Shown: one piece after another, positions 6,466 through 14,452 of the stretch
How the letters are laid out: the number at the start of each line of letters is the position of its first letter
Position numbering within the stretch: the first letter of the stretch is position 1
NCBI RefSeq assembly: GCF_001269905.1
Contig: NZ_LHVK01000009.1
Location: 1-64,000, forward strand
DNA length: 64,000 bases
Origin: Pseudomonas corrugata
GTDB taxonomy: Bacteria; Pseudomonadota; Gammaproteobacteria; Pseudomonadales; Pseudomonadaceae
Direction: 5' to 3'
Position numbers and translations under genes: made by a program
The notes under the pieces: model-generated
Told to the model about the DNA's origin: nothing
Database searches by the model: none
Seen by the model: only the letters and a program-made list of their open reading frames with translations

Positions 6466-7887
6466 TTACAGAATGTTGAACGGGATGGTGGTGACCAGGC
6501 GGAACTCATTGATGTTGCCGTCGGCCTGATGTTCGCTGGCGCGGTGGGTCGTGTAGGTGGCACGAATCGCGGTGGCCTTGAGCGGGCCGCTCTGCACGGC
6601 ATAAGACGCGCCGACGCCGTATTCGTAGTGACTTTCACCGTCCATCAGGCTCAGGTCGCCGCGCTGGGCACCTGGGTCGGTATAGGCCGTGCCCTTGTAA
6701 TGAGTACCGTCAATACCCCAGCCGCGTGCTTGGTAGATATTGAACTTCAGACCTGGCACGCCGTACTCGGCCATGTTGATGCCATAGGCAATCTGGAACG
6801 ACTTCTCATTCGGGCTGTTGAAGTCCGACAGCAGGGAGTTGGCCAGGTAGATGCCGTTGGTTTCGTGCAGGTAGTCGAAGTATTCGTCACCGTTCACTTC
6901 CTGATAGGAGAACGTCAGGCTGTGGGCTTGGTGCGTAAGACCGAACGACAGGGAGTAGGTATCGTTGTCGATATCCCCCATCAGCTTTTTGCCTTCATCG
7001 ACGGTCTTGTAGTAGTTCAGGCTTGTGGTCAGGCTCACTACCTGGCTGTCACCCAACTCGTGGGTGGCGCCGAAGTAGTACTGGTTCCAGAAGTCTTCGA
7101 CATTGGCCCCATACAGGCTGGTTTTGAGGCTCTTGAACGGCTGGTAGTTCACCCCCCCCATGTAGACCTTATCGGTTTCCACGCCGGTGGCGGAATATTC
7201 GCTGCGGAATTTCGACAGGCTCTGTTCGGTTCGTGGCGAAACACGGTCGAATCCGGCGACATCGAATGACAGGTTGTTGAATTCTTCGCTGTGCAGGCTG
7301 ATGCCTTCAAAGCTGGAAGGCAATGGACGGTTACCGATAACGTCGACAATAGGCGTGCTGAAGTTCTGGCGGCCGGCGGTCAACGTGGTGTTCGATACAC
7401 GGAACTTGACGTTGGCCAGACCCAGTTTGCTCCACTGGTCTACGGCATCGCCGTTGGAGTCTGCCAGGGTACGGTTCGAACCACCGGCAATGTGCTTGCG
7501 ATCACGGTCCAGCACGATTGCGTTGTAGGCGGCCACTTCCGTGCTGACACCTACGGTACCTTGGGTAAAGCCGGAGGTGTAGTTGACGATGGTGCCCTGC
7601 ACCCAGTTGATGCGACGGGAAATCGGGGTCCGGGGCACGGAAGGATCATTTTTGACGCTGTTTGGCTTGTAGCTGAACCGGTCGTCCCGGCGACGCAACT
7701 CATTGGCGTACCAGTTGCGGGTCGTACCGCTCAGGCTTTGCCCATCAATGAAACCTTTAGCTTCGCTTTGGGCGCTGCTGCCAGCCAGAGTGGTAGGTAC
7801 GAACTCCTGACTTACAGATTCAGCGTAGGCGCTGGCCGTAACGCTGCTGATGGCCAGGGCCAGTAACGCGGTGCTGCTCAATTTCAT
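6466..7887 (-). CDS. opdP: OprD-family outer-membrane porin, OpdP-like
   Basis: A 473-residue specific porin of the OprD family. It has signal peptide MKLSSTALLALAISSVTASAYA, the OprD-type FIDGQSL and NWYANELRRRD segments, many alternating beta strands, and a C-terminal strand ending FNIL. It sits between dppA genes exactly where PA4501 (opdP, glycine-glutamate/dipeptide porin) sits in P. aeruginosa, so it should bring dipeptides across the outer membrane for the DppA proteins. The leader holds a LacI-type palindrome and an A-rich motif next to the AAGGAG ribosome-binding site. A basic-amino-acid porin is the alternative, but context favours peptides. Confidence 0.85.
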   Translation of the reverse strand: MKLSSTALLALAISSVTASAYAESVSQEFVPTTLAGSSAQSEAKGFIDGQSLSGTTRNWYANELRRRDDRFSYKPNSVKNDPSVPRTPISRRINWVQGTIVNYTSGFTQGTVGVSTEVAAYNAIVLDRDRKHIAGGSNRTLADSNGDAVDQWSKLGLANVKFRVSNTTLTAGRQNFSTPIVDVIGNRPLPSSFEGISLHSEEFNNLSFDVAGFDRVSPRTEQSLSKFRSEYSATGVETDKVYMGGVNYQPFKSLKTSLYGANVEDFWNQYYFGATHELGDSQVVSLTTSLNYYKTVDEGKKLMGDIDNDTYSLSFGLTHQAHSLTFSYQEVNGDEYFDYLHETNGIYLANSLLSDFNSPNEKSFQIAYGINMAEYGVPGLKFNIYQARGWGIDGTHYKGTAYTDPGAQRGDLSLMDGESHYEYGVGASYAVQSGPLKATAIRATYTTHRASEHQADGNINEFRLVTTIPFNIL

Positions 7888-13570: not shown

Positions 13571-13699
13571 GTGGCGAGGGAGCTCGCTCCCGCTGGGCTG
13601 CGAAGCGGCCCCAAAAGCAGCGACGCTGCCTGTCTGACACGCCGAGGTGTCAGCTTCGGGTCTGCTTCGCAGCCCAGCGGGAGCAAGCTCCCTCGCCAC
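13571..13699. repeat. Composite REPIN-type palindrome, copy 1
   Basis: Outer arms GTGGCGAGGGAGC / GCTCCCTCGCCAC, then GCTGGGCTGCGAAGC / GCTTCGCAGCCCAGC, enclose a central hairpin CTGACAC/GTGTCAG (13634-13640/13647-13653). It lies between the dpp promoter region and the DUF6124 leader and recurs at 14323 and 20127, with a variant at 19123. Confidence 0.85.
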
Positions 13700-13774
13700 G
13701 GTGTTGCGGTAGGGCTGGAGGCAGCGCGAATCATTCAGGTGCATCGGAAGGATCTTCTGGACCGAAGGGAAATT

Positions 13775-13915
13775 TTAGGGTTGCCCCTCGGAAGTGGGCT
13801 CCCTAACCTTTTGCCTGTCGCTGCGAACCAGTGACCAGGAGTGGAAACCTGAAATTAGTAGGTCGTAAGCCTCACGACCATAACGGCAAGTGATGGCTCC
13901 AATTTCATCGGGAGC
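13775..13915 (+). promoter_or_regulatory. Structured 5' leader of the DUF6124 gene
   Basis: Three successive helical domains fill this leader. Domain 1: TTAGGG/CCCTAA (13775-13780/13801-13806) with GCCC/GGGC inside. Domain 2: CCTGTCGCT (13814-13822) with AGTGACCAGG (13830-13839), nine pairs and one bulge. Domain 3: TGAAATT/AATTTCA (13850-13856/13901-13907) enclosing GGTCGT/ACGACC (13861-13866/13874-13879). The last arm ends just before the GGGAG ribosome-binding site. This density of complementary segments is unlike ordinary spacer and suggests a riboregulator. Function and ligand are unknown. Confidence 0.5.
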
Positions 13916-13921
13916 ATGCAC

Positions 13922-14308
13922 ATGAATGAAGGAAAGGCCGAACCAAACTTCAATAGAACCCATCCGCTATCAGACTTCGACGCCGTCGAAGATTTACTCA
14001 AGGACCGCGCCGCCGCCGAGCGTGCCTTGGGCCACTACCTCAAACCCAAGTCGCCAGAGCCACCCACCGATCCGCGCATCGACAGCCTGTTCTCCGTGAC
14101 CGCCAAAGCGGACGCCGACACGCTATTGACCAGCACCTGCGAAACCCTGGCCTCGGTAAAGGCCATGGCCGAGGATCTGGCCTTCGAGGTGGATGGCACG
14201 CGCCGTAGTGTGGCGCTGGGGATTCATCAGTTGGTGGAGTTGTGTCAGTTGCTGGTGGACAAGGCGCTGGATCAGCTTGAAGTGCCGGCCAGTTCGGTCG
14301 AGGTGTAG
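13922..14308 (+). CDS. DUF6124-family small protein
   Basis: A 128-residue protein with a variable, charged N-terminus and a helical C-terminal half containing LLTSTCETLASVKAMAEDLA and VALGIHQLVELCQLLVDKAL. This pattern matches the Pseudomonas-restricted DUF6124 proteins, whose role is unknown. No signal peptide or membrane span. GGGAG lies 7 nt before the ATG at 13922, so that start is favoured over the ATG at 13916. It is a single-gene unit flanked on both sides by near-identical REPIN palindromes and preceded by a highly structured leader. Confidence 0.75.
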   Translation: MNEGKAEPNFNRTHPLSDFDAVEDLLKDRAAAERALGHYLKPKSPEPPTDPRIDSLFSVTAKADADTLLTSTCETLASVKAMAEDLAFEVDGTRRSVALGIHQLVELCQLLVDKALDQLEVPASSVEV

Positions 14309-14322
14309 CACGGACGGCCCTT

Positions 14323-14452
14323 GTGGCGAGGGAGCTTGCTCCCGCTGGGCTGCGAAGCAGCCCCAAAAGCAGCCACTCAGTTCATCTGACACACCGAGGT
14401 GTCAGGTTCGGGGTCTGCTGCGCAGCCCAGCGGGAGCAAGCTCCCTCGCCAC
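14323..14452. repeat. Composite REPIN-type palindrome, copy 2
   Basis: Same architecture as 13571-13699, with arms GTGGCGAGGGAGC/GCTCCCTCGCCAC and the central hairpin CTGACAC/GTGTCAG. It lies 15 nt after the DUF6124 stop, between convergent genes, and could also end transcription. Confidence 0.85.

Follow-up and report, generated by a model that had tools for sequence, protein, structure and literature searches.

What stands in front of the DUF6124 gene on this Pseudomonas corrugata contig, and does it govern that gene? The window, by which is meant the whole stretch of 64,000 nucleotides that was analysed, carries a leader at positions 13775-13915. The original prediction, made from the letters of the DNA, had described it as an elaborate cis-regulatory RNA (riboswitch, thermosensor or protein-binding leader) built of three helical domains and acting at the ribosome-binding site. 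The leader is very probably real, and neither a lone riboswitch nor a thermosensor; it has the appearance of a C4 antisense-RNA cassette of the phage P1/P7 type (RF01695/RF03163) without its C4 gene. The whole reading, to which we give a probability of roughly 0.8, is of a C4-derived leader whose DUF6124 gene would have been released from C4 control, with the leader retained and perhaps re-purposed. The features concerned are:

13781-13809, + strand: predicted promoter, with -35 TTGCCC (13781-13786), 17 nt and -10 TAACCT (13804-13809)
13817-13835, + strand: first hairpin of the C4 target, GTCGCTG/CAGTGAC, from the c4-a1b1 match and covariation on 35 elements
13836-13851, + strand: a1 hairpin CAGG-AGTGGAAA-CCTG, from the c4-a1b1 match and covariation, with address a1 = GTGGAAA at 13841-13847
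13855-13862, + strand: address b1, TTAGTAGG, 8 nt fitting the same-place C4 RNA of G172 (L118) and G010 (L119)
13869-13901, + strand: conserved 33-nt block GCCTCAC..TCCA, in which GCCTCAC may pair with GTGA(N)GGC and which contains the putative scar of the lost C4 RNA (about 13883/13884)
13896-13915, + strand: hairpin GCTCC/GGAGC over the Shine-Dalgarno sequence GGAG (13911-13914), from the minimum-energy fold of the window, both arms being present in 10 of 11 homologues and lost in SJZ074
13922-14308, + strand: DUF6124 gene of 128 aa, an open reading frame matching PF19619 with 100.3 bits (gathering cut-off 27)

Its neighbours are a dppA-like gene on one side and a SIMPL gene on the other, and of the two start codons of the DUF6124 gene the ATG at 13922 is 7 nt behind the GGAG while that at 13916 is only 1 nt behind it. 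An AlphaFold model of the protein (11 sequences) is all helical (mean pLDDT 67.8, pTM 0.38) and has no PDB match at E <= 0.001; PHROGs, NCBIfam and PADLOC hold no family for the gene. A phage origin was considered and rejected, the single phage record having its match at the extreme edge (positions 61-327 of 22,689), as was a plasmid origin, there being no plasmid match. The protein had been called restricted to Pseudomonas, and in a sample of 145 genomes from the order, one other member of the genus among them, the window's own was indeed the sole genome with DUF6124. It had also been called a lone gene; its genome has 32 DUF6124 matches, 27 of which run from position 1 to position 62 or 63 of a profile 63 positions long. 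A pair of similar inverted repeats, each about 130 bp long (GTGGCGAGGGAGC...GCTCCCTCGCCAC), flanks leader and gene at 13571-13699 and 14323-14452. The Rfam microRNA and isrG matches in the window sit on these repeats and were set aside, the microRNA ones being spurious.

C4 RNA is best known as the single immunity switch of phages P1 and P7. Rfam 15 at its curated cut-offs gave no match across the entire 64 kb window, riboswitch and thermosensor families included. A permissive search of the leader gave a c4-a1b1 (RF03163) match at 13804-13855 with 38.3 bits (E 1.3e-8), short of the curated cut-off of 46.7 bits, a shortfall which counts against our reading. The C4 RNA itself is absent: none of the 29 C4 hits of the genome falls in the window, and the RF01695 fold of about 87 nt is not present in the leader. 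A similar arrangement of two adjacent hairpins belongs to IsrK of Salmonella Gifsy-1 (RF01394), which matched the window with 17.7 bits (E 0.067), the cut-off of 50 not being reached; IsrK activates orf45/anrP expression according to PMC4825925, and no such arrangement is found at the window.

The rest of the genome (G000, 6.1 Mb) holds the complete form of such a leader. It has 29 C4 RNAs over the Rfam cut-off, and a DUF6124 domain is encoded within 420 nt behind 22 of them. The c4-a1b1 family gave 47 rows at E <= 10, 21 over the cut-off. We used 36, 28 with a C4 RNA behind and eight without, the window among the latter; the 11 dropped were C14:61550 (40.1 bits, a good hairpin pair and no cassette behind), C23:200112, C30:217551 and eight with E values of 0.77-9.6. 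As read at 41 places, the order in a full cassette is -35 (e.g. TTGTGC), 17 nt, -10 (TAnnnT), the a1 hairpins, b1, a spacer, the C4 RNA, a2, the Shine-Dalgarno sequence (b2) and the gene, with 43-62 nt between the Rfam matches to a1b1 and C4 (27 cassettes). Four of the 27 DUF6124 genes have a1b1 and no C4 RNA (the window, C2:80179, C30:207900 and C30:26164), the gene at C27:72743 has neither, and a broken copy occurs at C12:53318. Among 99 genomes of the genus, with up to 39 candidates scored per genome, C4 RNA was found in 91 and DUF6124 in 73, the Spearman correlation between the counts being 0.85; 18 genomes had at least 30 C4 hits.

A second protein family (87-92 aa) stands behind three further C4 RNAs of this genome. 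Its members are L071 1584-1853, L072 1199-1468, L032 1640-1900, L029 1630-1905 and L034 1636-1899; an assignment to DUF3077 was given up, Pfam having assigned no family. Two of its genes without C4 RNA have the a1 code TTTGGCGA in common with three that have one, and this group is a candidate for regulation in trans.

The putative promoter of the window has the position and spacing seen in the other cassettes, and GGTTG and TA are conserved across the alignment of 11 C4-less leaders. The prediction rests on position and conservation; a generic sigma-70 scan called no promoter at 13781-13809. Transcription should begin near 13816, upstream of 13850, the point beyond which a start had been said to tell against the original prediction. 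The arms of all three proposed helices are present where they had been placed. However, since the -35 and -10 would put the start near 13816, the first helix (TTAGGG/CCCTAA with GCCC/GGGC inside) is best taken as promoter DNA: it covers the sites at which -35 and -10 recur in the other cassettes, and it is without covariation in 11 homologues (69.1% of cells are paired, against 69.0% after shuffling, 305/500). The second (13814-13839) does overlap a genuine hairpin, but in the wrong register (86.4% against 86.0%, 259/500, 11 leaders). The conserved register pairs 13817-13823 with 13829-13835, followed by the second hairpin at 13836-13851, with covariation in both. The C4 target, with its two hairpins and a1/b1, occupies 13817-13862. 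The third helix is not conserved (65.0% against 62.8%, 60/500, 11 leaders); its inner part GGTCGT/ACGACC is complete in only three of 11 rows (window, SJZ074 and citri), and its outer part TGAAATT/AATTTCA is missing from the minimum-energy fold of the window, a similar pairing being found in that of SJZ074. A lack of covariation in homologous leaders had been named beforehand as evidence against the proposal, and for helices 1 and 3 this is what we observed.

The leader nevertheless folds better than shuffled sequences. The 156 nt at 13770-13925 reach -54.7 kcal/mol (z -2.63, 2/200 shuffles as good), and the part that is probably transcribed, 13816-13924, does only modestly better than its shuffles (z -1.68, 11/200). 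The original observation is confirmed in part; helices 1 and 3 have no comparative support. The structure that does have it is the pair of consecutive hairpins, which on 35 a1b1 elements including the window is 97.9% paired against 93.1% (0/500) with 23 double-change cells against 5.8 in shuffles (0/500), bearing in mind that related sequences can exceed such shuffles without structure. This alignment (A6) omits three wrongly cut of 42, L069, L071 and L072 with their shortened first hairpin, and L103. For the 11 C4-less leaders, the two a1 hairpins together with the block hairpin are 94.4% paired against 91.8% (0/500), with a covariation score of 0.195 against 0.136 (0/500); six of the seven block-hairpin pairs never vary and are thus uninformative on pairing in the block. 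Measured against RF03163, the window element falls short in score and lacks a C4 RNA downstream, and it has the two consecutive hairpins of that family; it is probably a variant of the C4-target kind.

A riboswitch, thermosensor or protein-binding leader, as first proposed, could draw on the fold, which betters that of most shuffles, and on the hairpin that can cover the Shine-Dalgarno sequence. We consider it largely disfavoured and very improbable, given that comparison with Rfam yielded no family over its cut-off in the window, that helices 1 and 3 do not covary, and that the covarying part is accounted for by homology to C4 cassettes. What endures of the proposal is that an RNA-based control system appears to act at the ribosome-binding site of DUF6124 genes; its means would be C4 antisense pairing and not a sensing fold.

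Evidence for such pairing comes from the addresses. In the 28 cassettes of the genome, the a' loop of the C4 RNA fits its own a1 at 7.0 of 8 positions and foreign ones at 4.8. Match lengths to own and foreign C4 RNAs are 7.0 and 4.4 nt for a2, 7.3 and 4.1 nt for b2, and 6.1 and 4.2 nt for b1, and in each of the four comparisons 0/10,000 permutations reached the observed sum, counts which overstate independence because the cassettes are related. By duplex energy the cognate C4 RNA came first for b1 in only nine of the 28, the summed energy still beating every permutation. The b2 match includes Shine-Dalgarno letters in 18 of the 28; one of the 28 cassettes, C18:80559, has no recognised gene and hence an arbitrary b2. 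The a codes are common to small groups of cassettes and the b codes are nearly private. Homology, anatomy, the absence of C4 from the window and the matching of addresses can all be read directly from the DNA. The matched a2 and b2 sites fit the mode of action of phage P1/P7 C4 RNA described in PMC5320573, PMC8198154 and PMC12197685. There RNase P releases the C4 RNA from a longer transcript, whereupon its a' loop confers specificity and its b' loop masks the ribosome-binding site.

The ancestral layout would then be promoter, target a1/b1, C4 RNA, target a2/b2 (b2 over or beside the Shine-Dalgarno sequence) and DUF6124 gene. Within a full cassette the transcript is probably cut to free the C4 RNA, whose two loops would pair with a2 and b2 of the matching mRNA and block translation, a1/b1 providing a second docking site; each full cassette would so silence its own gene. 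The window lacks both the C4 RNA and the opening part of a2, and its b2 has ceased to fit, so the gene has most likely escaped C4 repression. It would be read from its own promoter, tempered at most by the small Shine-Dalgarno hairpin, with a1/b1 remaining as an unused or decoy docking site. The start of transcription, the processing, the repression in full cassettes and the release in the window are what we infer from this anatomy.

To which C4 RNA would the remaining addresses of the window belong? Its a1 (GTGGAAA) and b1 (TTAGTAGG) fit the same-place C4 RNA of G172 (L118) and G010 (L119) over 7 + 8 = 15 nt; reference values for a1 and b1 together are 11-15 nt (mean 13.2) for cognate pairs and 12 nt for the 99th percentile of non-cognate ones. 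By the same rule for all, the best C4 RNA of its own genome is C21:32975 with 12 nt, including a 9-nt run in the b' part that is paired with a1, and the others reach at most 10; three C4 RNAs on C29 have an a' loop that can pair 7 nt with b1 of the window. Both observations weigh against our reading, the 12 nt of C21:32975 lying inside the cognate range. It might be supposed that the leader is still controlled in trans by C4 RNAs from elsewhere in the genome or from related strains. The window has after all retained the address of the G010/G172 C4 RNA, and two other C4-less genes of the genome, those of the second family, have the a1 code of C4 RNAs at other loci. We think this unlikely, however, for none of the genome's C4 RNAs exceeds 12 nt when both a1 and b1 have to be matched in the right order, and the b2 site at the Shine-Dalgarno sequence no longer fits. 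Moreover, when the five genomes that have C4-less leaders were searched by pattern for loops that would fit, 38 places were found, fewer than the 69 of the reversed control pattern. Five of the 38 are reverse strands of the leaders and two lie on the opposite strand of an ordinary a1b1 element; C4-like flanks were seen at none of the 30 places examined.

The same chromosomal place was followed through the relatives using the SIMPL protein alone as bait, which was found in 394 of 398 genomes, and the 30 best loci were read. Fifteen have a DUF6124 match and 15 do not (the contig of G272 is short there). With G112 set aside for its 29-aa fragment, 14 loci were counted, and 12 of these have a C4 RNA, called in 10 by patterns for both parts and in G388 and G299 by eye; the two without are the window and G267. 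The full cassettes at this one place have several address sets, TGTGGAAA/TTTAGTAGG in G010 and G172 and CGTGAGAA/AATAGG in G159, G039 and G209, and therefore the address has changed there. On the right-hand side of the gap the window reads AACGGCAAGTGATGG, identical to the latter half of a2 in G159 and G039, and this speaks for deletion or recombination and against a leader that never had a C4 RNA. At this place, orthologous genes stand behind leaders that naturally either have or lack the antisense part. Among seven relatives at this place (L118-L124) the a/b addresses differ by species, as if exchanged as a unit. Upstream of the SIMPL gene in G112:C23 (L226), only 29 aa of DUF6124 remain; the leader and most of the gene seem to have been deleted.

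Leaders of the C4-less type also occur beyond the window. BLAST over 249 genomes found them in G232, G083 and G222. When 84,980 species genomes were scanned with a 20-letter piece, 11 stretches came up: 10 belong to Pseudomonas, and the eleventh, in an acidobacterial MAG, is unrelated. The leaders of GM50, farris and the Pavin MAG are the same as those of G083, G232 and G222 and so are not independent. The block was found in none of 2.9 million viral contigs. A covariance model of the 11 leaders gave five strong matches in 398 genomes (own, G267, G232, G083 and G222; 99-111 bits), followed by a gap down to 47 bits, where ordinary a1b1 elements start. When 25 of these ordinary matches were read, 24 had a C4 RNA behind (L182 is cut short) and L163 proved a separate C4-less case. 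Eight of the 11 distinct C4-less loci other than the window have a SIMPL match beside them, in one case just a 22-aa end.

The block at 13869-13901 is identical over 33/33 letters in seven of ten named homologues and over 30-31/33 in three, in front of genes whose proteins are 37-83% identical to that of the window, and its variation in the 11-leader alignment is confined to the loop base and the bulged base. Because 19 letters of the block served as bait in the species-genome scan, unbiased support comes from G232, G083 and G222, found by BLAST, and from G267, found with the SIMPL bait, all of which have the block intact. From a block common to ten named Pseudomonas genomes with proteins down to 37% identical, we take the C4-less leader to be old. 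Such strong conservation argues against simple decay and is to that extent a point against our own reading. That leader and gene are a non-functional remnant, decaying after control was lost, appears improbable: C4 has been lost at three further DUF6124 genes with a1b1 in this genome, and one is broken at C12:53318, but neither the window nor distant relatives show damage to the reading frame, the promoter or the conserved block.

The block beside the ribosome-binding site may have been retained as a new cis element or because another RNA docks there, or its retention may reflect recent exchange between strains. The first two would mean that after the loss of C4 the block, with or without a1/b1, became a new cis-regulatory element, either as a hairpin (GCCTCAC/GTGANGGC, the pairing in the block being that proposed by RNAalifold) beside the Shine-Dalgarno hairpin or as a docking site for another RNA or protein; this would add to release from C4 control, not exclude it. 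The preservation of 30-33 of 33 letters where the proteins are 37-50% identical, the restriction of changes to a loop base and a bulged base, and the five strong model matches in 398 genomes followed by a gap all point that way. Nonetheless, 19 letters of the block were scan bait, the pairs of its hairpin are invariant, and recent exchange between strains could equally yield identity, so that we hold the idea as a tentative one with the odds rather against it. P. mandelii 6A1 (L150, about 7056-7350 on the reverse strand) has two copies of the leader, 135 nt apart, and between them a piece of a C4 (P2 hairpin and b' loop), which we read as the trace of recombination between the two leader types.

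Returning to a released, C4-derived leader as the preferred reading, its relation to known systems can be stated. The full cassettes of this genome resemble the P1/P7 C4 RNA (RF01695) with its a1/b1 targets (RF03163) in having a two-hairpin target ahead of C4, two address loops and a second target at the ribosome-binding site. The window copy differs in having no C4 RNA and in its controlled gene, DUF6124 in place of an antirepressor operon, and the chromosomal copies here number dozens. PMC5320573 describes 21 Group 1 C4-like sRNAs with variable a' loops in one genome of Acinetobacter baumannii, many per genome as here, with read coverage suggesting processing like that of phage C4. That paper leaves the targets open, whereas here 22 of 29 C4 RNAs stand before genes of a single family and find matching sites within the leaders to which they belong. 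It also cites Weinberg et al. 2010 for predictions in Pseudomonadales, and a table in PMC2864571 places the c4 antisense RNA in Proteobacteria and phages, and c4-a1b1 in gamma-Proteobacteria and phages. The literature searched, outside which most subscription journals lie, contained no mention of DUF6124, no C4/DUF6124 system and, among the C4 antisense papers listed, no title on Pseudomonas.

A single bacterial genome thus has 29 C4 RNAs; 22 precede genes of one small-protein family, and in most cases the addresses are private and matched. Should the circuits function as their anatomy implies, they would be a natural setting in which to study how antisense RNAs can multiply and grow apart with no cross-talk, and would give access to DUF6124. 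A wider view, which we put forward as a conjecture that may well fail, is that antisense circuits run in parallel by the dozen in Pseudomonas genomes, generally one for each DUF6124 paralogue, with two-part addresses of which 'a' is shared by a small group and 'b', at the Shine-Dalgarno sequence, is nearly private. Loss of C4 would then have given a second leader type conserved for its own sake, its docking region and 33-nt block re-purposed as a cis element or as a receiver for the C4 RNAs of other strains.

Some minor features of the full cassettes were also noted. A hairpin over the Shine-Dalgarno sequence was rejected as a general feature, being no commoner than chance would give (27 of 28 cassettes; 2.59 of the 4 bases paired, 2.17 after shuffling; mean z -0.3). 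A run of T lies between b1 and C4 in C28:298230-298431, C30:204112-204313 and C7:31923-32122, partly in the loop of a hairpin (TGCAGGCGC-T7-GTGTCTGCA), and is possibly an attenuator or a binding site; attenuation as a general mechanism was rejected, with at least five T in the spacer of just four of 28 cassettes. Lastly, a1b1 elements with no recognisable DUF6124 gene behind are found at C29:337811-337862, C18:80559-80746 (which has a C4 RNA) and C14:61550-61601, and these may be stranded or decayed cassettes.
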